DNA of 62,306 bases from Crocinitomicaceae bacterium (GTDB lineage Bacteria > Bacteroidota > Bacteroidia > Flavobacteriales_D > Crocinitomicaceae): NCBI GenBank assembly GCA_024643555.1, contig JAHEMQ010000010.1:1-62306 (forward strand), given 5' to 3'. Both the position numbers and the translations under genes were made by a program. This document shows, piece by piece, positions 7,874 to 40,384 of the stretch. The stretch's first letter is position 1. Each line of letters opens with the position of its first letter. The notes below the pieces were generated by a model. That model did no database searches. It was not told the origin of the DNA and saw nothing but the letters and a program-made list of their open reading frames with translations.

Positions 7874-8634
7874 AAGTCAGTTTAATTCAGGCTGATCAAA
7901 CTTGGGAAGATAGAAAGGCAAACATCGACATGTTTGCTTCACTCATTGCGCCATTAACAGACACTGATCTCATCGTACTTCCGGAAATGTTTCACACTTC
8001 TTTTTCCATGAATGTTTCACTCGCTGAACACTGGGAGCATAATGTTGTGATAAATCAGTTAAAAAGTTGGGCCTCACACAAGCAAGCAGCCATTTATACC
8101 TCATTGATGGTGATAGAAGCAGGCAAATTTTATAATCGGGGTGTATTTGTGTTCCCAAAGGGAGAAGTTACCTATTACGACAAACGTAAATCGTTTGGAC
8201 TTGGGGGAGAAGATAAAGTTTTTACGCAAGGAAATCACGAACAAATCGTAGCGTATAAAGGATGGAATATCAATTTGCAAATTTGCTACGATTTGCGCTT
8301 CCCTGAACTCATTCGAAATCGAATCGGTGCTGATGGAAGTCCTGCATATGATCTCCTCATTTACGTTGCCAATTGGCCAAAAAAACGGGTCCTTCACTGG
8401 ACAACCCTACTGAAAGCAAGGGCTATCGAAAACCAATGTTATGTGGTTGGGGTGAATCGAGTAGGAACGGATGGTAATAATTTAGAGTATCCAGGTTCCT
8501 CCGCTGTATATAATGGATTAGGAGAAACATGTTTAGAAATGAATGAACACGAAGGCGTTTCCTCCATTGTAATCGCATATGAACCATTGCAAAATTTGAG
8601 ATTCAACCTGCCTTTTTTGAAGGATAGGAAATAG
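7861..8634 (+). CDS. Omega-amidase-like nitrilase superfamily hydrolase (YafV/MtnU type)
   Basis: The 257-residue protein has the complete nitrilase catalytic set: E42 in LPEMF, K108 in YYDKRKSF and C142 in QICYDLRFPE. The CYDLRFPE motif is typical of the omega-amidase/NIT2 branch. Such enzymes hydrolyse 2-oxoglutaramate or 2-oxosuccinamate to the oxo acid and ammonia. The gene overlaps the upstream aminotransferase, so the two are almost certainly translated together. Known pathways pair these enzymes because removing 2-oxoglutaramate drives glutamine-dependent transamination forward. Substrate specificity cannot be read from the sequence alone. Confidence 0.87.
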   Translation: MQDLKVSLIQADQTWEDRKANIDMFASLIAPLTDTDLIVLPEMFHTSFSMNVSLAEHWEHNVVINQLKSWASHKQAAIYTSLMVIEAGKFYNRGVFVFPKGEVTYYDKRKSFGLGGEDKVFTQGNHEQIVAYKGWNINLQICYDLRFPELIRNRIGADGSPAYDLLIYVANWPKKRVLHWTTLLKARAIENQCYVVGVNRVGTDGNNLEYPGSSAVYNGLGETCLEMNEHEGVSSIVIAYEPLQNLRFNLPFLKDRK

Positions 8635-8646
8635 TTTGTATATTTG
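8616..8646 (+). promoter_or_regulatory. Bacteroidota-type promoter (TTTG - 19 nt - TATATTTG)
   Basis: TTTG at 8616-8619 and TATATTTG at 8639-8646 are separated by exactly 19 bases. This matches the -33/-7 consensus described for the Bacteroidota primary sigma factor. The start codon of the secreted protein is 22 bases downstream. It is the best two-part promoter in the window. Confidence 0.7.
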
Positions 8647-8668
8647 ATAACACGTTAAATTGTAAAAA

Positions 8669-10504
8669 ATGAAAAAAATTGTACTCTCGGCTGTTGTGTT
8701 GACATCTTCGATGTTTGCATTTGCTCAAAAAGCACCAAGAATGGAAACATTTCAGGACTTGGTGAAAGCTCCAAATCACGCTGGTCCAGTAGAATCAACT
8801 GAGAAATCACTCGGAGTGACGATCTGGTCTGATGACTTCTCGACTCCAGCGAATTGGACTATCGATAATAGTGGTCAATCAGGCATCGATTTCGGATGGA
8901 ACATCAACAATGTTTCTGACGGATGGTGGTCAACGGCAGGAATTAACTCTACTTCAGGTGGAAATTATGCAGAATTAGTGAATGGTGATCCAACCGCTTC
9001 TCCTGCTACCCAAGCATTAAATGTTGTTTACAAAATGACAACCGCATTGCCAATTGACGTTGCTTCGTTGGGTGGTTCAAACCAAATTTCTTTGCAGTTT
9101 AAACAATATGGTGCGCGTTTCAACGATTTGCAGGAAATGTTCATTAGTACGAACGGTACTTCATGGACTTCTGTTGGAAATAATTCCGACAAACCAGTTT
9201 TGTCTGCTTCTGGTGGTGCAGCATATTCAAATCCAGACACGAAATCTTTAAATTTGGCGCCTTTCTTAACGTCAGCACCAACGCAACTTTGGATTCGTTT
9301 TCAATGGACAACGAACTATCCGAATTCTGCAACAAATCCTAACGTTTGGATCACTTACGGTTGGTACATCGACGATGTGAAATTGGTAACAAATCCAACA
9401 AATGATTTAGCTGTAACAGGTTCAGATTGGGGATCAGCAGGATTACATTATTTCCAAATTCCTACTGCTCAGGTAGCACCGATTGATTTTACAGCAGATA
9501 TCTTCAATGGTGGTGTAAACAACCAGTCCAATGTAAAATTGAACGTAAACGTGAATAGTGGAACTTTTGTTGGTTCAAGTGCACCTACTTCCATCGTATC
9601 TTTGGATACAATGACGGTAACGCTTGCGACGCAATTCACACCAGCAGCTACGATTGCATCTTATACGTTAACAAGAAACATTACCGCTGATTCAACAGAT
9701 GATGTTCCAGCAAACAATGCCTTGTCGGACATTACATTCAATGTGACAGATTTTATCTATGCACGTGATAACAATGTGATTTCAGGAAGTACGTCAAACG
9801 GAACAACTGGATTTGAAACTGGAAACTTGTACGACATCTACCAAGATGCCTTGTTAAAAGCAATCAATACACGTCTTCCAAACGGAACAAGCGGTGCAAC
9901 TGTAGGAACTGAAATTTATGCACGTTTGTATTCGATTGATCCAACAACTGGAGATTTTGTTTTTGAATCTGAATCAGCACCTTTGGTATTAGCAGCCAAT
10001 AACTTGAACACGAATTTGGTGATGGAATTGGATCCTTATGTAAACGTAACAGCTGGTACAACTTATTTAGCTGTAGTTGGTTCTTACACAAGTGGATTGA
10101 AAGTTTCCAATGCTGGAACCTCTCCAGCACAAACTTCCTTCTTATTAGATGGAAATGATATCGTTTCTTCTACGTTGTTCTACCAAACATCAACACCATA
10201 TGTTCGTTTGAATTTTGATCCAGTTTTAGGTACAGAAGAGTTAGAACAAGTTCAACAAGCGGTGATTATGCCAAATCCATCCAACGGAGTAGCTGAATTG
10301 CAATTTGAATTGTTAAATGCTTCTGATGTAACCGTATCAGTTGTTGACGTAACAGGAAAAGAAGTTCAGCATATAAGCATGAATCAATTAACGAATGGCA
10401 CACACTCAGTTGCTATCGAATCTGCAAAATGGAACAGTGGTGTTTACTTCGTGAACATTGCATCCAACGGGACAGTTTTGACGAAAAAATTCGTGAAAAA
10501 ATAA
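8669..10504 (+). CDS. Secreted protein with MAM/choice-of-anchor-like domain and type A T9SS sorting domain
   Basis: The 611-residue protein has a clear signal peptide (MKKIVLSAVVLTSSMFAFAQ). An N-terminal jelly-roll-like region (about residues 50-240) contains WSDDFSTPANW and WYIDDVKLV, resembling MAM or choice-of-anchor J domains. The middle is beta-rich and resembles other Bacteroidota surface proteins. The last 80 or so residues form a type A sorting domain: MPNPSNG, VVDVTGKEV and SGVYFVNI, ending KKFVKK. Export through the T9SS and surface attachment are expected. It has its own promoter and a strong terminator, so it is probably a single-gene transcript. The binding target is unknown. 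Confidence 0.88.
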   Translation: MKKIVLSAVVLTSSMFAFAQKAPRMETFQDLVKAPNHAGPVESTEKSLGVTIWSDDFSTPANWTIDNSGQSGIDFGWNINNVSDGWWSTAGINSTSGGNYAELVNGDPTASPATQALNVVYKMTTALPIDVASLGGSNQISLQFKQYGARFNDLQEMFISTNGTSWTSVGNNSDKPVLSASGGAAYSNPDTKSLNLAPFLTSAPTQLWIRFQWTTNYPNSATNPNVWITYGWYIDDVKLVTNPTNDLAVTGSDWGSAGLHYFQIPTAQVAPIDFTADIFNGGVNNQSNVKLNVNVNSGTFVGSSAPTSIVSLDTMTVTLATQFTPAATIASYTLTRNITADSTDDVPANNALSDITFNVTDFIYARDNNVISGSTSNGTTGFETGNLYDIYQDALLKAINTRLPNGTSGATVGTEIYARLYSIDPTTGDFVFESESAPLVLAANNLNTNLVMELDPYVNVTAGTTYLAVVGSYTSGLKVSNAGTSPAQTSFLLDGNDIVSSTLFYQTSTPYVRLNFDPVLGTEELEQVQQAVIMPNPSNGVAELQFELLNASDVTVSVVDVTGKEVQHISMNQLTNGTHSVAIESAKWNSGVYFVNIASNGTVLTKKFVKK

Positions 10505-19645: not shown

Positions 19646-19672
19646 TTTGAAATTATGCGTTATACGCTCGAC

Positions 19673-21991
19673 ATGAAACGAATACTCTCCATTTTACTCC
19701 TTTTTGTTGCCTTTTATTCAAAGGCACAGATTGGCATGGGTTCGTGGAAATTGCATGTGGCAACCGCGAAAGCAATTGACGTTGTGGCGTCTGAATCAAA
19801 AGTCTACACCGCTTACATAAATGGACTCTCGGTTTATGATTTGGCAAATGAGGAGCATGTCCTAATGACCGCACTCAATGGTCTATCAGATATCGATATT
19901 TCTTGCCTATACTATGATTCGCTGCAAAATGCGGTTTACATTGGGTATACGAATGGGAACATTGATAAATTGAAAAATGGACATGTTATAAATATTCCCG
20001 CCATTAAACTTGCTCAAATTTCTGCTTCCAAACGCATCAATCATTTTGAGCGTCATGGCGATTACCTCTATGTAGCCAATGATTTTTCGCTCATTCAATT
20101 AGATGCCAATAAGGATGAGGTCAAGGAGACCTTTTATCCAACAAATGGAACTGAAAGGGTGGTTGATGTCTCAATTTACCAAGATTCTATTTACGCTTTA
20201 ACTCCCACCCAATTGCTGAAAGGATTTTTAACGAATCCACTGTTGCCAGATTTTTCTCAGTGGGTGCGCGACATTCGACTTCCATATCAAACAGCAAATA
20301 AGTATACGGAGATGGACCTATTTCATAGCCGCTTGGTAGTTTTGAAAAAATCAGAGGATTATGGGTCAGATACCGTTTACCGCATCAACGCCAGTGATTT
20401 AGAGGTTGTTACCAATTTGCCATTTACGGTGGAAATTAATTCAATCAATGTTGTAGGTTCTTATTTATCGGTCAATATCGATGGTGTGATCAATATGTAT
20501 AACGACAATCTGCAAATTCCAGAAGCCTATGGAGCAGGAAATTTTAACACTTGGTTTTCATCCGCACGGACCGCGCGAAATCAACAGGGATTATGGTCAG
20601 CTGATTTAAAATCTGGCTTAGTCTTATATCCAAGTGAGATTTCGGTAAAATTCTATCCGGTTGAAGGAACTAAAAATGATCAATTTTACGCCATGGATGC
20701 CCAAAAAGGGAAATTAGCAATTGCCTCTGGACGACTAAACGATAATGCCCCTGGCTTTACTAGAAATGGGGTGCATTTTTATGAAGAAGGATTGTGGAGT
20801 TTGTTGAATGTGAGTCAAGTAACAGCTTGGCCCGAATCAGACACATGGGATTTTATTGATGTGGCTATCAATCCCAATAATACCGATGAAGTTGCCATGT
20901 CAACCTACTCTTATACACCATTGACCTTAATAAATGCTGTAGATACCTTGGTGTTTAATGGTTCAAATTCTCCTATTAAACCAACTTCGATTGGGAATGG
21001 TTGGACTTTAGTATCCGATGTGTTGTTCGACAATAGAGGCAATTTATGGGCCTTAAACGGATACTCAGACCGACCGTTAACCGTTCGAGATAAAACAGGA
21101 AATTGGTATGCCTTCGATTGCGGCAGCGATGGTAAAAACAAGTTCACTAACAAGATGATTCAAGATTATGATGAAATCCTTTGGTTTGCAACGAAATCAG
21201 ATGGCATTATCGGATACAATTACAAGGGTACTCTATCGGACCCAAGTGATGATCAATATGTTTCGATTAATGATGGACCGTTGTCAGGTAATCTTCCATC
21301 CATTGCAGTCACTGCACTTGCAGCGGACTTTGACGGTGAATTATGGATCGGGACGGAATCTGGATTTGCCATATTATACAATGCAGCTTCCGCTTTTGAT
21401 GCACAACCCGGAGACTATAACGCGCAGCAAATCAAAGTGAATTTTGAAGGAAATGTGGAATATGTTTTGGGAAAAACACACATAACCGACATCGAAGTGG
21501 ATGGTGGAAATCGCAAATGGATGGCCACGGCAAATGCGGGAATCATTCTCATGTCCGCAGACGGTTCTGAAATCTTGGAACAACACACCATGGAGAATTC
21601 ACCCATCATCTCCAACACAATTTATGATTTGCAACTGAATCAAGAAACTGGTGAACTTTACATCGTTACAGACAAAGGATTGGTGTCCTATCGAACGAAT
21701 GCGACCTACGAAGACCCTACCTATGAAAGTGTAAAGATTTTCCCAAATCCTGTGAAACCCACGTATTTCGGACCAATCACGATGCAAGGTATTCGCTATA
21801 ATTCGGATGTTAAAATAACGGATGTCGCAGGAAATTTAATTTACCGCACCACCTCAAACGGTGGAACAGCTACTTGGAACGGCCAAAATTTACAAGGAGA
21901 AAAAGTCCCTACGGGAGTATATTTCTTTTGGACCACCACCAATGCTGACGGACGAGATCGTAAAGTTGGAAAAGTGATGGTCATTCGTTAG
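19673..21991 (+). CDS. porZ: PorZ-like type IX secretion system surface protein
   Basis: The 772-residue protein begins with a signal peptide (MKRILSILLLFVAFYSKAQ). An alternative ATG at 19655 adds six residues. The mature start GMGSWKLHVATAKAIDVV, followed by LNGLSDIDISCLYYD and IGYTNGNIDKL, matches the N-terminal propeller of PorZ. Two-component-regulator-like propeller blades continue to about residue 660. A type A sorting domain follows, with IFPNPVKP, ITDVAGNLIY and GVYFFW. PorZ in Porphyromonas gingivalis has nearly the same length and acts in the surface attachment complex that processes T9SS cargo. No other core T9SS gene adjoins it here. Confidence 0.87.
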   Translation: MKRILSILLLFVAFYSKAQIGMGSWKLHVATAKAIDVVASESKVYTAYINGLSVYDLANEEHVLMTALNGLSDIDISCLYYDSLQNAVYIGYTNGNIDKLKNGHVINIPAIKLAQISASKRINHFERHGDYLYVANDFSLIQLDANKDEVKETFYPTNGTERVVDVSIYQDSIYALTPTQLLKGFLTNPLLPDFSQWVRDIRLPYQTANKYTEMDLFHSRLVVLKKSEDYGSDTVYRINASDLEVVTNLPFTVEINSINVVGSYLSVNIDGVINMYNDNLQIPEAYGAGNFNTWFSSARTARNQQGLWSADLKSGLVLYPSEISVKFYPVEGTKNDQFYAMDAQKGKLAIASGRLNDNAPGFTRNGVHFYEEGLWSLLNVSQVTAWPESDTWDFIDVAINPNNTDEVAMSTYSYTPLTLINAVDTLVFNGSNSPIKPTSIGNGWTLVSDVLFDNRGNLWALNGYSDRPLTVRDKTGNWYAFDCGSDGKNKFTNKMIQDYDEILWFATKSDGIIGYNYKGTLSDPSDDQYVSINDGPLSGNLPSIAVTALAADFDGELWIGTESGFAILYNAASAFDAQPGDYNAQQIKVNFEGNVEYVLGKTHITDIEVDGGNRKWMATANAGIILMSADGSEILEQHTMENSPIISNTIYDLQLNQETGELYIVTDKGLVSYRTNATYEDPTYESVKIFPNPVKPTYFGPITMQGIRYNSDVKITDVAGNLIYRTTSNGGTATWNGQNLQGEKVPTGVYFFWTTTNADGRDRKVGKVMVIR

Positions 21992-26653: not shown

Positions 26654-27217
26654 ATGAAGTTTTTGATTGTTGGATTGGGAAATCCAGGAAAAGAATACGA
26701 AGAAACACGCCATAATATTGGATTTAAAGTGGTAGATGAAATCGCTAAGGAATTAGGAACCACCTTTTCTTTGGATAAAGCCGCTTTTCGCGCAGAAGTG
26801 AAATTTAAAGGTCGCACCCTCATCCTCATTAAACCAATTACCTTTATGAATCTCTCTGGTAAAGCAGTGAATTATTGGCTTCAAGCGGAGAAAATCGAGC
26901 AAAAAAACCTATTGGTCATTACCGATGATATCGCTCTTCCATTTGGAAAATTGCGCATGAAAGGGAAGGGTAGTGATGGAGGACACAACGGTTTAAAAGA
27001 CATTCAAGCCGTATTGAAAACAGAAGTATACGCTCGTTTACGTTTCGGTGTTGGAAATGATTTTTCCAAAGGAAGACAAGCCGATTATGTATTGGGAGAA
27101 TGGAACAAGGAGGAACAACTAGCTCTCCCTGAACGGATTCAAGTAGCCACTGAATTTATTAAGAGTTTTTCCTTTGTTGGTCTAGATATGACAATGACCC
27201 ATTGGAATGGAAAGTAA
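26654..27217 (+). CDS. pth: Peptidyl-tRNA hydrolase
   Basis: The 187-residue protein has full family length. VGLGNPGKEYEETRHNIG contains the catalytic histidine H20. TFMNLSGKAV, VITDDIALPFGKLRMK and GSDGGHNGLKDI are the other conserved motifs. It releases tRNA from peptidyl-tRNA that dissociates from ribosomes. It starts 3 bases after the barrel gene and ends the rluB-lipoprotein-barrel-pth operon. Confidence 0.95.
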   Translation: MKFLIVGLGNPGKEYEETRHNIGFKVVDEIAKELGTTFSLDKAAFRAEVKFKGRTLILIKPITFMNLSGKAVNYWLQAEKIEQKNLLVITDDIALPFGKLRMKGKGSDGGHNGLKDIQAVLKTEVYARLRFGVGNDFSKGRQADYVLGEWNKEEQLALPERIQVATEFIKSFSFVGLDMTMTHWNGK

Positions 27218-27258
27218 ATGAAGACAATATTAAATTTTTATGAATGTAGTATTATTCG

Positions 27259-27281: not shown

Positions 27282-28415
27282 ATGATAAAATTTGTACTCG
27301 CTGCTTTTGTTTGCTATTTCTCGGTTGCTTTTACCCAATATTGTACCCTAAATGTAGGCCCAACCTCAACCGTGGATTCTAACGTAGAATTGGTTCAAAT
27401 TTCAGGTGCTTCAGGGAACATCAATTATACGGGTTGTCCCGGTGTCATTGGTGTGCAGGACTTAACGACACTTTCTGTCGCCTTAAACGCCGGAGGAGCA
27501 TACCTTTTAAATGTTAAATTTGGCACTTGTGGTGGAAATTATGCAGGTGCAGGAGAGGTCTGGATTGACTTCGATCTAAATGGAAACTTCGACCCTTATG
27601 AATCCATTGGAACATGGACAGGCACACCTCCAGCAAATGTTACACCCATGAACTTTGTTGTTCCAGCAAACGCACAAAATGGAAACACCCGCATGCGGGT
27701 CATGCAACATGAAGCAGGAACCTTGCCTTTGAATCCTTGTGCTACGTATGCTTGGGGTTCTGTCATGGATTTTGGGATTACCATTGGTAACGGCATCGAT
27801 TGCACGGGATACATTGGAGATGACCAAAACGACCCTATTTTGGTGAATTCCTTACCATTTACAGATTCAAGAGACAACTCCTATTGTTATTCGAACAATA
27901 ATTATGTGTATCCGTCACCGGACTTGTACTATAAATTTATTCCGAATCCGCTTATTCAGTCCGTACACGCTTCCCTTTGTGGCGCTTCATTTGATACCTT
28001 TATGAGTGTGGTTGATATGAATGGAAACGTCATTGCCTTCAATGATGATGCTCCAAACTGCGGAAGCCAATCGGAACTTACATTTGAAACGGCTGGCTTA
28101 GGTTCTGTTTACATCATTGTCGAAGGTTGGGGAATTGAAATGGGGAACTATACCTTAACCTTGAACGCCGATTATGTCGGATTAGAGGAGGAAAAGATAT
28201 CAGTTGTTAAGGTTTTTCCCAATCCAACAAGTGGAAATGTACACTTAAATCAATCCATTGGAATGGCGACGTTATACCATGTGAATGGAACAAAATTGGC
28301 AACCTATAATACAGATCAGGATTTGCAAATTGACCTAAGTGACTTTCAAGCGGGAAGTTACTTTTTAAGGTCTCAAGATGGACAAGTTTCTCAACAAATT
28401 GTTTTGGTCAAATGA
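27282..28415 (+). CDS. Secreted GEVED-domain protein with type A T9SS sorting domain
   Basis: The 377-residue protein starts at ATG 27282, which gives a clean signal peptide (MIKFVLAAFVCYFSVAFTQ). A GEVED-like domain (about residues 20-165) includes VEVWIDFDLNGNF-type acidic residues (EVWIDFDLNGNFDPYESIG). A pre-peptidase/CUB-like region follows (about 170-295). The C-terminal type A sorting domain has VFPNPTSGNV and GSYFLRSQDG. It is probably a surface-attached adhesin or enzyme accessory. It overlaps the first kelch gene by 4 bases (ATGA), so it heads the secreted cluster. Confidence 0.83.
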   Translation: MIKFVLAAFVCYFSVAFTQYCTLNVGPTSTVDSNVELVQISGASGNINYTGCPGVIGVQDLTTLSVALNAGGAYLLNVKFGTCGGNYAGAGEVWIDFDLNGNFDPYESIGTWTGTPPANVTPMNFVVPANAQNGNTRMRVMQHEAGTLPLNPCATYAWGSVMDFGITIGNGIDCTGYIGDDQNDPILVNSLPFTDSRDNSYCYSNNNYVYPSPDLYYKFIPNPLIQSVHASLCGASFDTFMSVVDMNGNVIAFNDDAPNCGSQSELTFETAGLGSVYIIVEGWGIEMGNYTLTLNADYVGLEEEKISVVKVFPNPTSGNVHLNQSIGMATLYHVNGTKLATYNTDQDLQIDLSDFQAGSYFLRSQDGQVSQQIVLVK

Positions 28416-29557
28416 GGAGCATTTTAACATTACTGTTTTGCCTAATAACATTGGCAAGTGAGGCACAATATTGGATCCAAAAATCCTCTTTTGCCGGTGT
28501 GGGACGTCACCGAGCAGTCGGATGCGCAACCGAAAACAAAGGTTATCTTGGATTAGGTCATGTCAATGGTTCAGGTGTTAATTACTCTTACCAAGATTGG
28601 TGGGAATATGACCCGTCCTCTAATTCATGGTCACAACGCGCGAATTTTCCAGTTGCGAATTATGGAGCTACCAGTTTTGTGGTCAATGACCAGCCTTGTG
28701 TCGGGGGAGGAGCAGCCTTAGATGGACAATTTTATACCTTCAATCCAGATCAAAATACTTGGACGGCAATTGCTGCTTGTCCATTTTTTAATCCAGGTGA
28801 TACACAAGGGTTTTCGGTAAATAATAAAGGTTATGTATACGTCGGCCAACAAATGGCAGAATATGACCCAAGTAACAACAGCTGGAGCTTAACTGCTTCA
28901 CCACCGGTATCCTTTGGATCATGGACGTGTTCATTCACCATAGAAGGAAGTGGATACGTGAAAGCCGGGAATAAATTGTTTGAATACAAACCTTTGCATA
29001 ACACATGGACTCAACGTGCAGACTTTCCCGGTACAAGCACAGGAGGAAGTTCTGGTTTTTCGATGCTTCAACGTGGATTTGTCACCTGTGGATATGTTGG
29101 TGGCTTAAGTACGGTGACGAGTCAAGTATGGTCTTTTTATCCAGGAACAAATACTTGGCAAGCGGAATTAGAATTCCCTGGAATCTCTAGACGATTCCCA
29201 GTTGCCTTTTCCATTCATAATAGAGGGTATTTTGGCACAGGAACAAACGGGATTAATCTAAATGATTTCTGGCAATACAATCCTACGATCAATACTTCAG
29301 AGCTTTCCGAGACTGATGATTGGTCATGGAGCATCTACCCGAATCCAAGCTCGGATTTCATTCATCTTGAATTACCCCTTGAATTCCCTTCAGGACAGAT
29401 AGGGGAGTTAAGGAATTTGTCAGGACAGTTGATCCAACGAATCGAGCTGCATCCGGGAATAAATCAATTGGACGTCTCCAATCTTCCTACTGGAACTTAT
29501 TTGATGAGCGTTCAAACTCAAGATCAAACATCGAGTAAACTAGTTAAAATCTTGTAG
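28412..29557 (+). CDS. Kelch-type T9SS type A secreted protein, copy 1
   Basis: The 381-residue protein has a signal peptide (MRSILTLLFCLITLASEAQ). About six kelch-like blades follow, with motifs such as WWEYDPSSNSWSQRANFP and FWQYNP. A type A C-terminal sorting domain ends the protein (YPNPSSDFIHLEL, PTGTYLMSV). Kelch blades form a beta-propeller that binds proteins or glycans. The blade motif WxYDPxxNxWxQRAxFP is shared with the next two genes. It overlaps the GEVED gene by 4 bases and precedes copy 2 by one base. Confidence 0.85.
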   Translation: MRSILTLLFCLITLASEAQYWIQKSSFAGVGRHRAVGCATENKGYLGLGHVNGSGVNYSYQDWWEYDPSSNSWSQRANFPVANYGATSFVVNDQPCVGGGAALDGQFYTFNPDQNTWTAIAACPFFNPGDTQGFSVNNKGYVYVGQQMAEYDPSNNSWSLTASPPVSFGSWTCSFTIEGSGYVKAGNKLFEYKPLHNTWTQRADFPGTSTGGSSGFSMLQRGFVTCGYVGGLSTVTSQVWSFYPGTNTWQAELEFPGISRRFPVAFSIHNRGYFGTGTNGINLNDFWQYNPTINTSELSETDDWSWSIYPNPSSDFIHLELPLEFPSGQIGELRNLSGQLIQRIELHPGINQLDVSNLPTGTYLMSVQTQDQTSSKLVKIL

Positions 29558-29558
29558 T

Positions 29559-30767
29559 ATGAATCGAATGAATTTCTTCCTTTTGTGCATCTTTTCTCCG
29601 GTTTTACTAATGGGACAGTTTAATACTTGGACCAAGAAAAGTGATTTTATTGCCGGAAAAAGAGAACGAGCGGTGGCCTTTTCAATAGGTGATTATGCCT
29701 ATGTTTCAACAGGAGTAGATACGACTGAAACCCTATTAAAGGACCTCTGGCAATACGATCCACAACTAGACACTTGGACTCAAAAAGCTGATTTACCGGG
29801 AGTGGCGAGAAGGGATGCTGTCGCATTCGCAATCCATGGTAAAGGTTATGTAGGAACAGGAATGGACAATGCCAATGCACTTATCGGAAATAAACTGAAA
29901 GATTTGTGGGAATATGATCCTTTGGTAAATGCTTGGACACAAAAAGCAGACTTCCCTGGCTCTGGAGGCAATGGAATTTATTTTTCAACGGCATTCACCG
30001 TAGATAACAAAGGGTATATCTGTGGCGGAAAATGGGGCCCAAGTTTGTACTCAAGTCAACTGTGGGAATACAAACCAGGCAATGATGAATGGATTCAACG
30101 TGCCAATTTCCCGCCCGGAGTTCGTTACCAATTGAGCTCATTTAGCATTGGGAATTTTGGGTATGTGGGACTTGGGGCGAATCAAGATACTTATAAAAAA
30201 GATTTTTACCGCTATAATCCGGGATCGAATCAATGGACTCAAATCGCTGATTTGATTGGTGGAGAGAGAGGAAGCGCTTGTGCATTTACACTTGATAATC
30301 ACGGATTTATTTGCTTGGGTTCAAATGGTGGACTTTTAGGTGATTTGCTGGAATACAATCCAGTATCGAATGAATGGGAGTTGCGCTGTGCCTATGGAGG
30401 TAGCGAACGAAAAAATGCCGTTGCGTTCGTTGTCAATGGCCGCGCATTCGTTGGACTTGGGAAAGGATATTCAGGTAAAAAAGCGAGTATACAAGAGTAT
30501 GCAGCACCCAATTATGCACAATTGTCCGAGCTTGAAAATAGCTGTGACATCTACCCAAATCCAACCAGTGGACAAATTCATTTGAACTCAGAACTAGCCT
30601 TGGAATCCGTTCAAATTTTCAATCAGCAAGGAACAATGTGTTTTCAACAGGAAATTTCATCCCCATCTGAAATGATAGACTTAAGACATCTGTCGGTAGG
30701 AATGTACCTTGTTAGGCTGAAAACAAAAGATGGAAAACACATTCAAAAACAAATCATCATTCACTAG
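29559..30767 (+). CDS. Kelch-type T9SS type A secreted protein, copy 2
   Basis: The 402-residue protein has a signal peptide (about residues 1-19), then six kelch-like blades (LWQYDPQLDTWTQKADLPG, LWEYDPLVNAWTQKADFPG and others). A type A sorting domain ends it (IYPNPTSGQIHL, VGMYLVRLKTKDG). It is clearly paralogous to the genes on either side, indicating tandem duplication. It starts one base after copy 1 and ends three bases before copy 3. The ligand is unknown. Confidence 0.86.
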   Translation: MNRMNFFLLCIFSPVLLMGQFNTWTKKSDFIAGKRERAVAFSIGDYAYVSTGVDTTETLLKDLWQYDPQLDTWTQKADLPGVARRDAVAFAIHGKGYVGTGMDNANALIGNKLKDLWEYDPLVNAWTQKADFPGSGGNGIYFSTAFTVDNKGYICGGKWGPSLYSSQLWEYKPGNDEWIQRANFPPGVRYQLSSFSIGNFGYVGLGANQDTYKKDFYRYNPGSNQWTQIADLIGGERGSACAFTLDNHGFICLGSNGGLLGDLLEYNPVSNEWELRCAYGGSERKNAVAFVVNGRAFVGLGKGYSGKKASIQEYAAPNYAQLSELENSCDIYPNPTSGQIHLNSELALESVQIFNQQGTMCFQQEISSPSEMIDLRHLSVGMYLVRLKTKDGKHIQKQIIIH

Positions 30768-30770
30768 GCG

Positions 30771-31970
30771 ATGCATAGACTTTTATTCTTCCTTTTAATT
30801 TCGTTGTCCTTTGACCTTTGTGCACAGGACTATTGGTATCCGCGCGATACCGTGAAGGGCTCGCCAAAAGCTGCCATGGCGGCGACTTCCTTTCAAAACA
30901 TTGGATTAATAATTGGTGGATTGGATGAGTTTGGGTTTAAACGCAAAATGTATTCTTATTCACCCTTTCAAAATGATTGGGATGAAGAAGTGTCAATTGG
31001 AGGGCCTTCTGGAGATGGATTAGAACGAGGTTCCGCTTCTGCATTTTCCCTTTACCATGAAAACGTGCAGAAAGCATACGTATGCCTGGGACAAACGCCG
31101 ACAGTGGCCTACATGAAGGATTTGTGGGAATTTAATCCACAAACAGAAACGTGGTCTCAAAAAGCAAATTTTGCCGGTTCAGCGCGACGACAAGCGGTTT
31201 GTTTTACATCGGGAAACATCGCATATGTTGGTACGGGAGAAGATGCCCAAGGACTAAAGAAAGATTTTTATGCTTACGATCCAACAACAAATAGTTGGAC
31301 ACAAATAGCCGATTTCTCAGGTACCGCTAGACGTGATGCCGTGGCATTTGAGTTGAATGGATTTGGATTCGTTGGCACAGGAGACGATGGCACGCTGAAA
31401 AATGACCTTTGGATGTATGATGTTCCATCTGATGCTTGGATTGACAAGGCGACCTTTCCTGGAACTCCTCGCGCTGGTGCCGTCGCATGGGGTGCATTCC
31501 CGGTTGCATACGTGGGAACAGGGGAGGACTCAAATGGGGACTTTAAAAATGATCTTTACGAATACAATTATTACCTAAATGCTTGGATTCAACGAGCAAA
31601 TTTACCGGCTCCAGGAAGGAAAAATGCATTTTCGTTCTACATCGATGGTGTTTCGTATGTTGGAGGAGGATACAATGGTATTTTTCTCGAAGATTTTTGG
31701 GCCTATGCTGGCACTGCCGGAATAAATTCAGTTGAAACGGCCGACGTTCAGTTATTCCCAAATCCGACCCAAGGTCACTTGCAGGTGCTTTCGGATGAGG
31801 TCCTGCAACAAATCAGCATTCAATCCATGGATGGCAAACAACTTTTTAATTCATCCGACAACATCAAAGCACTTGAATTAGATGTTTCGAATTGGCCTGT
31901 TGGGACCTATTTTTTCCAATACGAAATCAAGGGTAAAAATTACGTGAAAACATTTGTGAAATGCGACTAA
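30771..31970 (+). CDS. Kelch-type T9SS type A secreted protein, copy 3
   Basis: The 399-residue protein has a signal peptide (MHRLLFFLLISLSFDLCAQ) and about five to six kelch-like blades (LWEFNPQTETWSQKANFAG, FYAYDPTTNSWTQIADFSG). The type A sorting domain has LFPNPTQGHLQV and PVGTYFFQYE. Each blade contains a RRxAVxF-like segment (ARRQAVCF, ARRDAVAF), as in copy 2. Its last 10 bases overlap the start of the DUF4907 lipoprotein gene, so the cluster is one operon. Confidence 0.86.
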   Translation: MHRLLFFLLISLSFDLCAQDYWYPRDTVKGSPKAAMAATSFQNIGLIIGGLDEFGFKRKMYSYSPFQNDWDEEVSIGGPSGDGLERGSASAFSLYHENVQKAYVCLGQTPTVAYMKDLWEFNPQTETWSQKANFAGSARRQAVCFTSGNIAYVGTGEDAQGLKKDFYAYDPTTNSWTQIADFSGTARRDAVAFELNGFGFVGTGDDGTLKNDLWMYDVPSDAWIDKATFPGTPRAGAVAWGAFPVAYVGTGEDSNGDFKNDLYEYNYYLNAWIQRANLPAPGRKNAFSFYIDGVSYVGGGYNGIFLEDFWAYAGTAGINSVETADVQLFPNPTQGHLQVLSDEVLQQISIQSMDGKQLFNSSDNIKALELDVSNWPVGTYFFQYEIKGKNYVKTFVKCD

Positions 31971-32347
31971 TTTTCTTTTTGTGTCTCGGATGCATACTAT
32001 TTGCGTGTTCAGAATCACCGCAAACGAAGGAGTCCTTCAAACCAAAGCAACATGCTCCAAAGATAGAAAAGCAACAACTTGTTCAAACAAGCGCACCGAA
32101 GAGCTCGCGCTATACCGTTGCTACCTTTTCACAGCCAGAGGGATGGGGTTACTACATTTGTGAAAATGGAAAACAAATCATCAACCAAAAATCAATTCCC
32201 GGTGTTCCAGGAAACCAAGGGTTTTCGAGTTCTGAAGAAGCATTAAAAGTGGCTGAATTGGTTCGGACTAAAATCGAAAATGGAACTTTTCCACCGACGA
32301 TTTCAGAGGAAGAACTTCAAAAACTAGGAATTTCTTGGAGTAATTGA
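31961..32347 (+). CDS. DUF4907 lipoprotein
   Basis: The 128-residue protein has a lipobox (CILFAC) near residue 16 and a Lys/Gln-rich linker. The conserved C-terminal domain contains GWGYYICENGKQIINQ, IPGVPGNQGF and AEELVRTKI-type residues, with TISEEELQKLGI at the end. This pattern matches DUF4907, of unknown function. It ends the GEVED-kelch operon and overlaps copy 3 by 10 bases. A lipid-anchored partner of the kelch proteins is a reasonable idea but not shown. Confidence 0.8.
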   Translation: MRLIFFLCLGCILFACSESPQTKESFKPKQHAPKIEKQQLVQTSAPKSSRYTVATFSQPEGWGYYICENGKQIINQKSIPGVPGNQGFSSSEEALKVAELVRTKIENGTFPPTISEEELQKLGISWSN

Positions 32348-32392: not shown

Positions 32393-33841
32393 ATGAAAAG
32401 ATACCGAATTTCCGAGATATTAGCTGAAAATTCACCCTTGAAAATTGGTGAAGAAATCAATGTAAAAGGATGGGTTCGTGCCTTCCGAAGCAACCGTTTC
32501 ATTCAATTAAATGACGGTTCTTGTATGGCAAACATTCAAGCCGTTGTTGATTTTGAACAATGGGATGAAGCTCTTTTAAAGCGCATCACCACTGCTTCAG
32601 CATTATCTTTGACGGGAAAATTGGTGGAATCTCAAGGCGCAGGACAACAAGTAGAATTGCAGGTAGAACAAATCGAAATTTTAGGTGATGCCCATCCGGA
32701 TGAGGTTCAAAAAACAGTCATGCAACCGAAACGCCATAGTTTGGATTTCTTGCGTGAACAAGCACATTTGCGATTTAGAACAAACACGTTTGGAGCAGTA
32801 TTCCGTATTCGTCATGCCGTAGCCTACGCCATTCATCAGTTTTTTAACGACCGTGGATTTTATTATCTGCACACACCAATTATTACGGGTTCTGATGCCG
32901 AAGGAGCGGGAGAAATGTTCCGTGTCACAACCCTAGACGCGAAGAATCCACCGTTGAATGAGGATGGGTCCGTGAACTTTAAAGAAGATTTCTTCGGGAA
33001 AGCAGTGAACTTAACGGTTTCTGGACAATTAGAAGCGGAATTGGCAGCAACTGCATTGGGACAAGTGTATACATTTGGACCTACGTTTCGAGCAGAGAAT
33101 TCCAATACTTCGCGTCACCTTGCGGAATTCTGGATGATTGAACCGGAAGTTGCGTTCAATAATTTAAAGGACAACATGGATTTAACAGAAGATTTCTTAA
33201 AATACATCTGTTCCTATGTCCTCAATCATTGTTCGGAAGATGTGAAGTTCTTAAGTGAGCGCGATGCGCAAGAACAAGCACAAAAACCACAGAATGAACG
33301 CAATGAAATGACGTTAATCGAACGATTGAAGTTTGTCATTGAAAATCCATTCAAACGTCTGACCTACACGGAAGCGATTGATGTATTAATGAATTCAAAT
33401 CACTACAAAAAGAAGAAATTCAAATATCCTGTTGAATGGGGAATCGATCTTCAAAGTGAACACGAGCGCTATTTAGTGGAAAAAGAGTTCAATTGCCCAG
33501 TGATTTTAACGGATTATCCAGCGAAAATCAAAGCATTTTATATGCGTTTGAACGAAGATGGAAAAACCGTAGCTGCAATGGATGTCTTGTTCCCTGGAAT
33601 TGGTGAAATCGTTGGTGGTTCACAACGCGAAGAACGGTACGATGTCTTGCTTCAAAAATGTGAGGAATTCCACATTCCAGCGGAAGAACTTTGGTGGTAT
33701 ATGGATACACGTAAATTCGGTACCGTTCCACATGCTGGATTCGGACTTGGTTTCGAACGCATGGTGATGTTCGTAACGGGAATGTCCAACATTCGCGACG
33801 TTATTCCTTTCCCTCGAACACCATTGAACGCTGAGTTTTAA
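32393..33841 (+). CDS. asnS: Asparaginyl-tRNA synthetase
   Basis: The 482-residue class II synthetase has an N-terminal OB-fold (about residues 15-105, [19 protein letters not shown]). The catalytic core contains [41 protein letters not shown] (quoted in part: motif 2 is [15 protein letters not shown]) and the motif 3 region [12 protein letters not shown]. The Asn-type rather than Asp-type catalytic pattern and the length fit AsnS. The stop overlaps the convergent BaiN-like gene in a shared TTAA. Confidence 0.95.
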
Positions 33842-35527: not shown

Positions 35528-36529
35528 TTATTTTCCAAATAGATAGCAAAATGAGAATTCAAAAGCCCCTTGCGTTTTCGCTAAATCGGAAAGACCGGAA
35601 ATGGTAAAATCATAAGACACATTCAATTGATATTGATTCACTTGAAATCCTACTTTTCCAATCATGGCATCCTTCCATCGATTGTATAATCCAAAGGACA
35701 AAAAGTTTTGAGAAGCAGATTTTCCCGAGAGACTACCTTTGATGTAATAACGATAGGCTGCACCATACACACATTCATGTGAGGATTTTTGCTGTTGGTA
35801 GAAAAGCAATGGAACCAACGCTGTTTTCGTGTTTTTCATGGAAATTTCTGCACTCGCAAAAAGAGTACTTCGCATGTATAAACGTTCCTTTTCATTGGCT
35901 AAAAACGAATAAACAGGTCTATTCACATGGAAAAACCCGAGTCCAGCTGTTGCGCTATGAATCACCCATGATTGACTTCCCGCATTGCTTTTTCGATAGC
36001 GGTATAAGGTTCCCGCTCCTGCGTCTTTGAATGAAAATTGTGCCGTGGGCAATGGTTCCCCGCTCAAAATACTCGGGTCATACGCCAAACCATTGTATTG
36101 ATTTCCCCACCTTCCATTATTCCCGTCGATGCTGCGTTGCCCTAAACCTGCATAGATTCCAAGCCCCAAAGTGGAATTTCGTCCTAGACTTAAATGATAC
36201 GCACCACTTATGGAAATCTGCGAAGTTCGAATGGATAAATCACCTGTTTGGTCGTTGTATATTTGCAGACCCAAAGCGAAAAATCCATTGCTTCGGCGTT
36301 TGTCTTTTTGCAAACGTGCATCGAATCCTGCAGCCATTGTTTGAAAAGGACTGGCCAGACTTTTCCACTGAGTTCGGTAATTCAATCCTGCGCGAATTGG
36401 GGCCTCACTTCCTGTTTGTGCAGGATTGACCAATAATGGAGTTTGATCTACTTGTGAAAAATGTAAATCTTGGGCTTGTGTACCGAAATAAACGAGGGAA
36501 CACAAGAAAATGAGTTGAGTTTTCTTCAT
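35528..36529 (-). CDS. PorP/SprF family type IX secretion outer-membrane protein, second copy
   Basis: The 333-residue protein has a signal peptide (MKKTQLIFLCSLVYFGTQAQ) followed by the family signature LHFSQVDQTPLLVNPAQTG. Alternating beta strands form an outer-membrane barrel. It starts 3 bases after the stop of the large SprB-repeat protein at 36533-40384, so they are cotranscribed. The parallel with the cluster at 3-4757 supports a partner role in export of that protein. It is distinct from the copy at 3837-4757. Confidence 0.9.
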   Translation of the reverse strand: MKKTQLIFLCSLVYFGTQAQDLHFSQVDQTPLLVNPAQTGSEAPIRAGLNYRTQWKSLASPFQTMAAGFDARLQKDKRRSNGFFALGLQIYNDQTGDLSIRTSQISISGAYHLSLGRNSTLGLGIYAGLGQRSIDGNNGRWGNQYNGLAYDPSILSGEPLPTAQFSFKDAGAGTLYRYRKSNAGSQSWVIHSATAGLGFFHVNRPVYSFLANEKERLYMRSTLFASAEISMKNTKTALVPLLFYQQQKSSHECVYGAAYRYYIKGSLSGKSASQNFLSFGLYNRWKDAMIGKVGFQVNQYQLNVSYDFTISGLSDLAKTQGAFEFSFCYLFGK

Positions 36530-36532
36530 CGC

Positions 36533-39500
36533 TTATTTCATTAAAGTGAGGTTTCCAGAACGAATAACAAAATCGCCATTCTGCAGTTTGATGGTTAATT
36601 TGTAGGCAAATACACCTGCATTCAATTCCTTGTCTTTGTACTTCCCATCCCAGCACGCGTTTTGATCTTTCGTTTGAAACACACACTGCCCCCAACGATC
36701 ATAAATCGAATAGTCTAATTCTGCAATGCAATTTCCATATACGCATGCTTGCTTATTTTCATTGTTTGCACTAGCCGGTGAAAAGATGGTAGGAACATAA
36801 ATATCTCCACAGACTTCCGTGACGTAAATCATCACCTCTGCTTGACCGGTACAGCCGTTTGGAGCTGTTCCAGTTACCGTGTAAAGCGTTGTAGCAGTGG
36901 GTGAAGCACTTGTGCTGGCGCAAGTTGGACATGTTAAATCATCCGGAGGACTCCATTGATAACTGGCGGCACCGAAAGCATTGATGATGACACTTTGTCC
37001 AGACAAAATGGAGGTGGAAATCGGACTTGCCGTTACATTAATGGATCCTGTTCCTGGTATGAGATAGGATTCCGAACTTGCACAATCATGTGCATCGCTA
37101 ATCGTTAAACTAGGTGTGCTTCCTGGAGCTAAATTAGAAAGACTTGTTGCGTTTTGTCCGGATGGACTCCAAGTATACGTGTATGGACCTGTTCCGCCAG
37201 AAACAACAACAGATATCGATCCATTGTCGGTGGTACAGGAGGATGGAATAATGGTTTCGGTAATCGTGATTTGAGTTGGTTCCGTAATCGTTACACTAGC
37301 TGTTCCAATACACCCGGTATTATCCGTGACTTGAACAGCATAAATTCCTGCACTCAAATTACTTGCGGTGGCATTTGTCCCTCCGCTTGGTGTCCATGCA
37401 TACGTGTACGGAGAAGTCCCACCTGAAACTTGCGCCATTGCTGCACCGTTTGTCCCACCAAAACAGGAAATATTCGATACGGTGCAATTTACTGTCGGAC
37501 CGTTCGAATTACTAACAGTCGCTGTGCCATTGCTCGTACATCCATTCGCATCGGTAATCACCAACGAATAGACGCCTGCTGCTAAATTTGCAACTGTGGC
37601 AGTGTTTCCATTTCCAGGTGTCCACAAATAACTGTAAGGCGCTGTTCCTCCGTTAACCAAAGCACTTACAGATCCATTGGATGTTCCACACAAGGTACTG
37701 ACTGAACTCGTGCCCACCGCAAGCGCTGCAGTTGGCTGTGTCACATTTATTGTCATACTTCCTGGACAATTATTGACGTCCAAAATGGATACCGAATACG
37801 TTCCTGCAAGCAAATTGTTTACGTTCGCTCCATTCCCTGTGTTGGGAGTCCACGAATAAGTATAGGGTCCTATTCCGCCACTTGCATTCACAGTAATTGC
37901 TCCGTTGTTTCCACCAAAACAAGAGACATTCGTGATGTTACTTGCATTCACGGTTAAAGAGGTACAAGGTGTTGTTGTGCACGGAACTAGGTTTACAGCC
38001 GTGAAGGTGTAAACGGTTCCAGCATTATCGGTGACTTGAAATTGTGTGGACCCAGCCGGTGGAGTGACCGTCGTTCCCGTGGCAAAATTGACATATGCAG
38101 CCGGAGAACTACACGAAGTAACGGGCGTAAAACCATTTAAACATTGTCCAAAAAACCAAGTATATCCGCAATTTTGACATTCTGTTTGATTCGTGATCGG
38201 TGTATTCGTTGCAGGAACATAGTTCGACCAAGAATAAGGTCCTACACCACCTGAAACAGTGAATTGTCCATTCGATTCCAAACAAACTTGTAAGCCGGCA
38301 CAAGGACTCACTGTGATTTGAATGGAATCAGCACCACAAGGTAAGGTGTAAACAATCGTTTGAACACCAACTCCAGCGATACTTGGATTAAACACTCCAT
38401 TCGCATTTACGCCAGGCCCTGACCATGTTCCACCAGTCGTGCCAGCTGTTAAGGAAATTGGAGCGTCCGTAATGCAAACCGAATTTGGTTGACAAATGGT
38501 TGCGTCACAACACGTGCTTGCAATGGGCGCACAGGTTCCAACTGCAATGGAGCGTATGGCACCGCTGCGGGTACTACTTGTGGATGTCCCCGTTCCTCCC
38601 ACAGCAATTAACTCACCATTGGTATTGATTTCTAAATCATATACAGCAAATGTGGTTGGATAGAAGGCTTGTTGAATTAATAATTGGTCGTATTTAACAA
38701 CCCCAGTGGTTGATCCCACGTATATGTTGCCGCATTGATCGATTGCAATTCCTGAATTTCCAACGGTATAACCACCCAAAAAAACACTGTTGTATTGTCC
38801 TCCTGGAATGGTATTATCCTGAATGAAAGAACAATCTTGTAAACTGCGTTTTTCAATTTTATTTCCACGGTTAAAATACAGGTGATTTTGGTCAGCAGCT
38901 AGGGCGCAAATCCCTGAATTGTCATAACGGTAATTTTCCAACTTATATCCCCATCCAGCACCATGATTCATTTTGAAAAAGCTCGTTGTACCAGTTGGAC
39001 AAAGCGTAAAATTGTCATTTACATATCCCATGGTATCTTGGGTCATGAAGTAGTATTTCCCGTTTTTAGCAGAGGTAATCGACCGCACTTCCTCTACATT
39101 GGGTGGAATACTCGTTGTTGGACCATTGGAAATAAACTGTTGATTAGTGATGTTCAAGTTGGAGGTATTGACATTGTAAATCACAGCATCTAATTGCAAC
39201 AGAGCACCTCCAGTTCCACCAATGACCAAACTACTTTCATCACAATTAAAGGCGATGGTCCAAAATTCAGCACTGGAAAGTATTCCCCCTGGATTGGCAT
39301 TGTTTAGAAGTAGTGCACCAGTTGGACTAATTTTCTGAATTTGTGCCACTGATCCCGCTGTTACATAAGAATTTCCCGCATTGTCAACAGCAAAGGTTCC
39401 TAACCACACGTTGGATGTATCGTAAGGCGTGTTGTAAGTCCATTGCAAGGTTCCGCTGGCATTGTATTTTAAAATTTGCATGGGCATAATTCCCCCAAGT

Positions 39501-40384
39501 GCATAGACATTTCCTGCGCCATCCCGATCACATTCCCATACAACATCCCAATTTGTCGCAAAAACGGGTGTTTGGATCCATGGATCGATGAATAAATCTG
39601 CTGTTTGCTGGTAAGATCCTACATTAAATTTGACCTTTTTTTGGCTCACTTGAAAATTGCTTTTCAGCTCTTTTTTCTCTTCACCTTGAAACGAATACGG
39701 TGCGTGGTCAATGATGTCGCCAAAGGCAGATGGAATATGAATTTCTCCTTGAATAAACTGGACGTTTCGATCGTATTCCATTTCAATGTCTGCAGGATTC
39801 CCGCCGGGATGCACTATGAACACATACTTCAATCCAATTTGAGGGTGTACGGTAAATTTTAAATCGATGAATGGATAAATGTTCTCATATATGAGCTCTT
39901 CAAAGGCCTTTGCATGTGAAATCGCTTCATAACTTCCGTCTGTATTTTGAACCGAATAATTATGATCATCGGTCCTGGGTCTGAGTCCGAATAATTTCAC
40001 TTTTGCATTGGCGTTGACATAGCGCATGGAAACTTCGTCGCTTTTAAATTTGAATTTCCCAACGATGCGCTCTTGCTCTTTGTATTCTTGAGGAACATGC
40101 GCCAATGAAGCCCTTAAAGCATCGCGTTCTGCTTTGGGCACTTTAACAGCTTCTAGAAAGGAATAGTTGATTCCTGATTTTCCAAAGAAAATGCGTGTGG
40201 AACCAAAGTCAACACCGTACAATATTTTCCCTGTTTCATTTGTGGCAAATGCATCAAATTGACCTTTATTCTCAATAAAAACACGGGCTTTTTGGTAGGA
40301 TACACTCCAATTTTCCCCCTTTTCTTGTGCGAAAAGTGAAAAAAAACCGAATAAACTAAAGCATAATAGTAGTCGTTTGTTCAT
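36533..40384 (-). CDS. Large SprB-repeat surface protein with type B T9SS sorting domain
   Basis: The 1283-residue protein has a signal peptide (about residues 1-19). An N-terminal domain rich in FIENKGQF-like residues follows (about 30-270; the DUF7948/SBBP-associated type). A beta-propeller region runs from about 270 to 610 (with GNVYALGG, GNSYVTAGS and GNIYVGSTTG). A cysteine-rich stretch lies at about 610-810, and four SprB-like repeats at about 810-1115. The CHU_C sorting domain ends the protein (about 1200-1283, with DIYVPTIFSPASANN and ending NLTLMK). It is probably displayed on the surface as an adhesin. PorP/SprF lies directly downstream. A TATATTTG motif lies 25 bases upstream. Confidence 0.9.
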   Translation of the reverse strand: MNKRLLLCFSLFGFFSLFAQEKGENWSVSYQKARVFIENKGQFDAFATNETGKILYGVDFGSTRIFFGKSGINYSFLEAVKVPKAERDALRASLAHVPQEYKEQERIVGKFKFKSDEVSMRYVNANAKVKLFGLRPRTDDHNYSVQNTDGSYEAISHAKAFEELIYENIYPFIDLKFTVHPQIGLKYVFIVHPGGNPADIEMEYDRNVQFIQGEIHIPSAFGDIIDHAPYSFQGEEKKELKSNFQVSQKKVKFNVGSYQQTADLFIDPWIQTPVFATNWDVVWECDRDGAGNVYALGGIMPMQILKYNASGTLQWTYNTPYDTSNVWLGTFAVDNAGNSYVTAGSVAQIQKISPTGALLLNNANPGGILSSAEFWTIAFNCDESSLVIGGTGGALLQLDAVIYNVNTSNLNITNQQFISNGPTTSIPPNVEEVRSITSAKNGKYYFMTQDTMGYVNDNFTLCPTGTTSFFKMNHGAGWGYKLENYRYDNSGICALAADQNHLYFNRGNKIEKRSLQDCSFIQDNTIPGGQYNSVFLGGYTVGNSGIAIDQCGNIYVGSTTGVVKYDQLLIQQAFYPTTFAVYDLEINTNGELIAVGGTGTSTSSTRSGAIRSIAVGTCAPIASTCCDATICQPNSVCITDAPISLTAGTTGGTWSGPGVNANGVFNPSIAGVGVQTIVYTLPCGADSIQITVSPCAGLQVCLESNGQFTVSGGVGPYSWSNYVPATNTPITNQTECQNCGYTWFFGQCLNGFTPVTSCSSPAAYVNFATGTTVTPPAGSTQFQVTDNAGTVYTFTAVNLVPCTTTPCTSLTVNASNITNVSCFGGNNGAITVNASGGIGPYTYSWTPNTGNGANVNNLLAGTYSVSILDVNNCPGSMTINVTQPTAALAVGTSSVSTLCGTSNGSVSALVNGGTAPYSYLWTPGNGNTATVANLAAGVYSLVITDANGCTSNGTATVSNSNGPTVNCTVSNISCFGGTNGAAMAQVSGGTSPYTYAWTPSGGTNATASNLSAGIYAVQVTDNTGCIGTASVTITEPTQITITETIIPSSCTTDNGSISVVVSGGTGPYTYTWSPSGQNATSLSNLAPGSTPSLTISDAHDCASSESYLIPGTGSINVTASPISTSILSGQSVIINAFGAASYQWSPPDDLTCPTCASTSASPTATTLYTVTGTAPNGCTGQAEVMIYVTEVCGDIYVPTIFSPASANNENKQACVYGNCIAELDYSIYDRWGQCVFQTKDQNACWDGKYKDKELNAGVFAYKLTIKLQNGDFVIRSGNLTLMK
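37045..37960 (-). repeat. Four SprB-type repeats
   Basis: Four repeats of about 72-80 residues share SCFGGNNG, GPYTYSW, LAGTYSV and DxNxC landmarks. They match the SprB repeat described in the Flavobacterium gliding adhesin. Confidence 0.8.

Follow-up and report, generated by a model that had tools for sequence, protein, structure and literature searches.

This study concerns a five-gene cassette at positions 27282 to 32347 of a 62,306-nucleotide stretch of DNA from a Crocinitomicaceae bacterium (contig JAHEMQ010000010.1); the whole stretch is referred to here as the window. The cassette encodes, in order and on the forward strand, a GEVED-domain protein, three kelch-type proteins (K1, K2 and K3) and a small lipoprotein of the DUF4907 family. 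Successive genes are separated by −4, +1, +3 and −10 bases, which confirms the tight packing (gaps of 1–3 bases or overlaps of 4–10 bases) claimed in a preliminary description of this DNA.

The GEVED protein (27282..28415, +; 377 amino acids; ATG taken at 27282, the longest open reading frame (ORF) starting at 27240) matched GEVED (PF20009, 3.6e-16, 60.2 bits), Por_Secre_tail (PF18962, 9.9e-11) and TIGR04183 (36.8 bits). K1 (28412..29557, +; 381 amino acids) matched Kelch_3 and Kelch_1 above cut-off and PF18962 (7e-10). The corresponding matches were PF24681 (1.3e-33) and PF18962 (4e-13) for K2 (29559..30767, +; 402 amino acids), and PF24681 (1.9e-23) and PF18962 (2.3e-09) for K3 (30771..31970, +; 399 amino acids). 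The DUF4907 protein (31961..32347, +; 128 amino acids) matched PF16250 (5.5e-20) with 71.3 bits against a gathering score of 25. Kelch families exceeded the curated Pfam cut-offs in K1, K2 and K3, and PF18962 did so in all four large proteins (37.8–49.9 bits). The type A sorting domain of the type IX secretion system (T9SS; TIGR04183 of NCBIfam) was likewise above cut-off in these four and absent from the DUF4907 protein, just as had been described. Instead, the latter carries a lipobox with Cys16, followed by SESPQT, in which one of the six residues is acidic. Read by eye, the GEVED protein appears to have an N-terminal signal peptide, and the model of K2 shows a helix at residues 2–17.

The predicted model of K2 (predicted local distance difference test (pLDDT) 91.6) consists of a propeller followed by the sorting domain. 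It aligned with the solved kelch domains of NS1-BP, LZTR1 and Keap1 with Z of about 36–38 over 260–294 residues, at a root-mean-square deviation of about 1.4–2.2. In the model, the K2 repeats close into a propeller. The kelch domain of Keap1 has six blades.

Pairwise identity among K1, K2 and K3 is 25–29%. In a tree of 62 kelch domains, from which 8 near-identical rows had been removed, the K1-, K2- and K3-type rows each formed one clade (support 99, 100 and 100), and each clade took in genomes from outside the genus and from a second family of the order. The kelch proteins had been thought to be tandem duplicates. They are indeed paralogues, but the depth of these clades rules out a recent tandem duplication; by phylogeny, K1, K2 and K3 are old paralogues held in a fixed order.

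Of 100 relatives, a set that counts the window's own genome, 33 have DUF4907, and we examined the surroundings of all 33 loci (the window and 32 stretches of relatives). A kelch gene directly adjoins DUF4907 on the same strand at 29 of them. The uninterrupted order GEVED-K1-K2-K3-DUF4907 was observed at 22 of the 33 loci, one more has it with an insertion, and several others end at contig edges. This recurrence indicates that the packing is more than chance. Exceptions to the adjacency include L032, where an ORF of 149 residues occupies the K3 position, L034, which is cut by a contig end, and L044 (genome G025; 8410-9532), where 1.5 kb of inserted sequence, holding two ORFs that match no Pfam family, splits K3 from DUF4907. 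A locus from another family of the order (L063) has four kelch genes in the cassette, and the cultured Crocinitomix catalasitica has K2-type and K3-type genes followed by DUF4907. In 58 of 61 genomes from the genus, K2 (E at most 1e-40) and DUF4907 were all-or-none, both being present in 29 and both absent from 29; the discordant assemblies, with DUF4907 only (G001, G006) or K2 only (G029), consist of 260–360 contigs.

The window cassette lies between two genes outside the system, those of peptidyl-tRNA hydrolase (Pth; 26654..27217, +; PF01195, 2.7e-62) and of asparaginyl-tRNA synthetase (AsnS; 32393..33841, +; an ORF named by eye). Relatives carry the cassette between Pth and AsnS, by AsnS alone or elsewhere. 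In G018 and G048, which are devoid of DUF4907, Pth immediately precedes AsnS with gaps of 384 and 115 bases, so that the site is empty there. The cassette tree (omitting G012, G070, G073 and genes of <200 residues) and the AsnS tree have the same main clades, every site with more than one row falls on one side of a branch, and the cassette label requires 8 changes on the AsnS tree. Since the two trees share their main clades, descent with loss and relocation appears more likely than frequent transfer, and the changes themselves could be losses or gains. The idea of a frequently transferred mobile cassette was thus unsupported.

The association extends beyond the order. In a sample of 395 genomes of the phylum, DUF4907 occurred in 29, two of which belong to the window's genus. 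In the 27 others, a kelch ORF adjoins DUF4907 on the same strand without exception (26 upstream, 1 downstream), although these loci are not independent: 13 come from genus g29 and 15 of the 27 from one family, with 15 genera altogether. A random placement of DUF4907 relative to kelch genes, which the preliminary description had named as the outcome that would go against a linked secreted operon, is therefore not what is observed, either among the relatives (29/33) or in the phylum (27/27). Consistent with this, when 12 genomes (nine outside the order) were searched with K2, all outside-order matches except one G358 gene were at DUF4907 loci. K2 is 37% identical to the kelch protein of L093, 38% to that of Dysgonomonas hofstadii and 39% to a giant Bacteroidales form described below.

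The phylum-level pair differs from the window cassette in its export signals. It has one kelch protein, and a sorting tail was present in 0 of 27, compared to 85 of 85 kelch ORFs of the order-level cassettes. A simple rule assigned 17 of the 27 kelch N-termini a lipobox followed, within six residues, by two or more acidic ones, 8 a lipobox with fewer acidic residues and 2 no lipobox; it mis-scored L092 (which has CSNDDDDD) and apparently missed the lipobox of L116, and where L111 starts is uncertain. The lipoprotein export signal of Bacteroidetes is described as SDDDD and SDDFE (PMC5080379), which the acid-rich stretch fits, and two or more acidic residues served as the criterion in PMC12578637. 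By these signals, the phylum-level kelch proteins are nearly always predicted lipoproteins, usually with a surface-export signal. In the alignment, the lipoprotein form stops where the T9SS tail starts in the other form. A GEVED gene was not detected next to the phylum-level pairs.

Two further arrangements were observed. In Bacteroidales, DUF4907 is followed by a protein of ∼3010 residues (L295:1160-10201, 3013 residues; L296:1460-10486, 3008 residues) in which a kelch domain at the N-terminus is accompanied by SprB repeats and Ig_7 domains (Pfam, first 2658 residues); in the L295 copy, the C-terminus is a T9SS type B domain (TIGR04131). Its domains mark this third form of the module as a giant adhesin of T9SS type B that begins with a kelch domain. 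On a 13 kb plasmid of Hymenobacter monticola (L290, NZ_CP094540.1, 294-1896), DUF4907 precedes a kelch gene with a type A domain; the same plasmid also encodes a relaxase and MobC.

As kelch and DUF4907 stay linked when the site, the gene order, the copy number or the export route changes, the functional unit is likely to be the propeller together with DUF4907. Alternatively, these could be separate surface proteins joined by shared regulation only, with a role for DUF4907 unrelated to kelch. As no GEVED gene was detected beside the phylum-level pairs, not all the parts are obligatory, and a kelch-DUF4907 interaction is putative; both would suit shared regulation. However, this explanation predicts poorly that the pair should persist across sites, phylogenetic groups, gene orders and export routes, and we consider it unlikely.

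At 25 of the 27 phylum loci, covering 13 of the 15 genera, a DUF4270 (BamH-like) gene lies beside the pair, divergently oriented in 22; the exceptions are G219 and G358 of family f14. A profile of the linked DUF4270 proteins matched solved BamH (9n2d chain C) with E 2.6e-9. A BamG gene is next to the BamH-like gene at 23 of the 27 loci. Comparison with NCBIfam gave a BamG match for 15 of 18 candidate ORFs; the remaining three had been picked as guesses at L104 and L115. In Dysgonomonas hofstadii and D. macrotermitis, the BamG-BamH genes are divergent from the genes for the kelch lipoprotein and DUF4907, while the gene order in Siphonobacter is kelch-DUF4907-BamH.

Copies were counted with PF14092 for DUF4270 and with NF053685 for BamG (a strong match being 150 bits or more). 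Two DUF4270 genes were present in 19 of the 27 DUF4907 genomes, and it is these 19 that also have two strong BamG matches. A second copy of either was found in 0 of 19 control genomes without DUF4907, these being a non-random set of cassette-less class members, seemingly ordered by completeness, from which G068 was omitted. Within genus g29, two DUF4270 genes were counted in each of the 13 genomes that have DUF4907, against one in three genomes that lack it (G154, G165, G181). Of 60 relatives, among them the window genome, 57 carry a single DUF4270 gene and three have none. In the window genome (assembly of 2.19 Mb in 118 contigs, 86% complete), one DUF4270 gene and one strong BamG match were recognised, with no second DUF4270 gene or second strong BamG match, and neither BamH nor BamG was found at the window locus or at the order-level cassette loci. 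In G106, G335, G350 and G488, the kelch-linked BamG and BamH genes were the only ones recognised by NF053685 and PF14092, so the designation as a second copy does not extend to these four; either their main copies are too divergent or the linked pair is used instead.

BamG2 and BamH2 have been described as dispensable, barely expressed paralogues (PMC12611786, PMC12578637), which in Bacteroides thetaiotaomicron form a putative operon (PMC12611786). From copy number, shorter length and pairing, we infer that the kelch-linked genes correspond to the BamG2 and BamH2 of those papers.

The linkage to second BamH and BamG genes could also mean that the kelch protein is itself a structural subunit of an alternative canopy of the β-barrel assembly machinery (BAM), similar to BamI, with DUF4907 as another subunit and the T9SS form of the window as a later re-use. 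BamI of B. thetaiotaomicron carries a six-bladed propeller that touches BamH (PMC12578637), which agrees with this possibility. On the other hand, the window lineage and the two f14 genomes have the cassette without a second BamH or BamG, and none was present at the examined loci of the Hymenobacter and giant Bacteroidales forms. No BamI chain was among the listed sequence or fold matches, although no direct comparison with BamI was made and BamI may still be related. Such a canopy role seems quite improbable to us.

A histidine kinase ORF of the PF06580 (LytS) type follows DUF4907 directly at 18 of the 27 phylum loci, and at all 18 a response-regulator ORF lies within the next two genes (confirmed by Pfam at L093 and L104). 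This arrangement would be expected of an outside-to-inside sensor, in which the propeller binds a ligand, DUF4907 relays the event in the periplasm and the LytS-type kinase responds with a LytTR regulator; the membrane-held and not clearly surface-exposed nature of DUF4907 would also fit. In the window's lineage, the kinase would have been lost or be located elsewhere, since there is none in or directly beside the window cassette, and none is labelled at the Hymenobacter plasmid locus. That the T9SS forms retain DUF4907 without the kinase speaks against a sensor, and the kinase may merely control transcription of the module. A sensory role is unlikely in our estimate. At many phylum loci, mostly of genus g29, a DUF6268 ORF is present just upstream of kelch (e.g. 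L093:6031-6870).

We then consider the location of the DUF4907 protein. At the order level, all 32 readable loci encode a lipobox, with two or more acidic residues after the cysteine in 8. Among the 27 proteins of the phylum sample, the rule detects a lipobox in 17 (acid-rich in 1) and none in the remaining 10, which have a hydrophobic N-terminal segment. About a third of the phylum-sample proteins thus look transmembrane-anchored. As most members lack a surface-export signal and many have a hydrophobic N-terminal segment, DUF4907 is most likely periplasm-facing. In the model of the window protein, a low-confidence linker leads to a compact C-terminal domain of three strands, a long helix and a short helix (pLDDT about 90–98 per block from residue 51 on). 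No match was found among PDB sequences, and the fold search gave nothing convincing: the best Foldseek hit was MmoD (6d7k) at E 0.32, and the best VIA hit, with Z 5.5 across 61 residues, was closely followed by unrelated rows, from which neither a new nor a known fold follows.

These properties bear on the earlier suggestion that the DUF4907 lipoprotein might anchor the others, here the secreted kelch proteins on the outer membrane surface. A lipobox in 32/32 readable order-level loci would allow it. However, few members have a surface-export signal, about a third of those in the phylum sample are apparently transmembrane, without a lipobox (10/27), and DUF4907 is kept even beside kelch proteins with a lipid anchor of their own. 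T9SS type A cargo does not require a separate anchor. We regard the anchor role as very improbable; a protein mostly without a surface-export signal and often held by a transmembrane segment favours assembly or escort in the periplasm.

From the genes, their linkage and phylogeny, the signals and the predicted propeller fold, we infer localisation, physical contact and an escort role as follows. The kelch-DUF4907 pair would be a widespread surface module with an exchangeable export route, in which DUF4907 acts as an escort or assembly factor; the probability of this reading is roughly 0.42. The kelch propellers would be displayed outside the cell, where they probably bind a ligand. DUF4907, small, membrane-held and facing the periplasm, would act on the propeller before or during its passage through the outer membrane, in escort, assembly or quality control. 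Across most of the phylum, the propeller would leave as a surface lipoprotein encoded next to a second BamG-BamH pair. The window's order would use T9SS type A, with the propellers multiplied to three or four and a GEVED adhesin-like protein added, while the giant adhesin would use T9SS type B. The GEVED protein is a probable adhesin-like surface protein, and the combination of this adhesin-associated domain with three propellers suggests a surface binding layer in the window's lineage.

Several observations weigh against this proposal. Contact between kelch and DUF4907 is deduced from gene linkage. At L060 (G070), DUF4907 has no kelch neighbour, and kelch genes without a DUF4907 neighbour exist as well (G000:C86, G494:C17). 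The rule for the export signal is heuristic, and the two acidic residues in 8/32 order-level DUF4907 proteins make surface exposure possible there. Finally, the kinase genes at 18/27 phylum loci fit signalling equally well. Next to the DUF4907 gene of L060 lie a gene for a VTC-domain protein and one for a small protein whose matches to secreted domains are weak. G000:C86, the other kelch gene of the window genome, falls far outside the family on the kelch tree.

A more specific version of the escort proposal, which we hold tentatively and consider rather doubtful, is that DUF4907 is the dedicated partner of surface kelch propellers under any export machine, that BamG2-BamH2 mainly builds the kelch lipoprotein, and that the window's order switched from the lipoprotein/BAM route to T9SS. 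The function of BamG2-BamH2 was left open in two 2025 papers, which found the pair deletable without the defects tested (PMC12611786, PMC12578637). If the specific version is true, building the kelch lipoprotein would explain the puzzling role of the second pair, and an export machine would have been switched inside one conserved module. The constant genomic partner offers BamG2-BamH2 a candidate client or subunit, possibly a regulator. Homologous propellers that seem to take the lipoprotein route in one lineage and the T9SS route in another make both routes comparable on one fold, and DUF4907 acquires a partner and a testable role.

The window also encodes parts of the T9SS: a PorZ-type protein with an N-terminal propeller (19655-21991, +) and a PorP/SprF-type protein (35528-36529, −), so the host has at least parts of this system. 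The PorZ-type gene lies 5.3 kb upstream of the cassette, and its product has a CHU_C match at the C-terminus. Adjoining the PorP/SprF gene is that of an SprB-repeat protein (36533-40384, −) with a CHU_C sorting domain and DUF7948; the two look like a type B cargo and its partner. RNA families and tRNAs were not found in the window, and promoter and terminator scans gave fewer sites than in shuffled sequence and are hence uninformative. The names of the nearest relatives' isolates are often lake-, pond- or wastewater-like, the habitat being read from these names alone.

In the literature searched, we found no published account of the kelch-DUF4907 arrangement and no paper on DUF4907; for DUF4270, one paper was found, on iron deficiency. 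Nothing relevant was found on kelch proteins with T9SS, surface lipoproteins, F. johnsoniae or BamA. The word 'kelch' is absent from the main texts of PMC12611786 and PMC12578637 (figures and supplements excluded), and the kelch-BAM linkage may be drawn in Extended Data Fig. 3a of PMC12611786, which concerns bam gene neighbourhoods.

Compared to known systems, most phylum-level pairs recall BamG2-BamH2 of B. thetaiotaomicron, in that the BamH-like gene beside them falls short of the main copy in length and has BamG as its partner (PMC12611786, PMC12578637). The window differs in that its cassette has no such neighbours and its kelch proteins carry a sorting tail in place of the lipoprotein form. 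With the NanM/YjhT mutarotases, the kelch proteins have the kelch propeller in common, but the profile matches are weak and far below the curated cut-offs; the kelch proteins were rejected as members of this family, K2 scoring 74.4 bits against the TIGR03547 cut-off of 256.35, and K1 and K3 lower. Fibrillar adhesins of the CshA kind share with the window a GEVED domain on a surface protein (PMC10952558), but the window protein is short and T9SS-sorted and has no stalk or NR2 domain by Pfam, in which no domain other than GEVED and the sorting domain reached E 1. The likeness to T9SS type A cargo (TIGR04183) lies in the sorting domain on four of the five cassette proteins and in the PorZ- and PorP/SprF-type genes of the window. 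The cassette differs from such cargo in that no enzymatic domain was recognised, and in having three paralogous propellers regularly followed by DUF4907.

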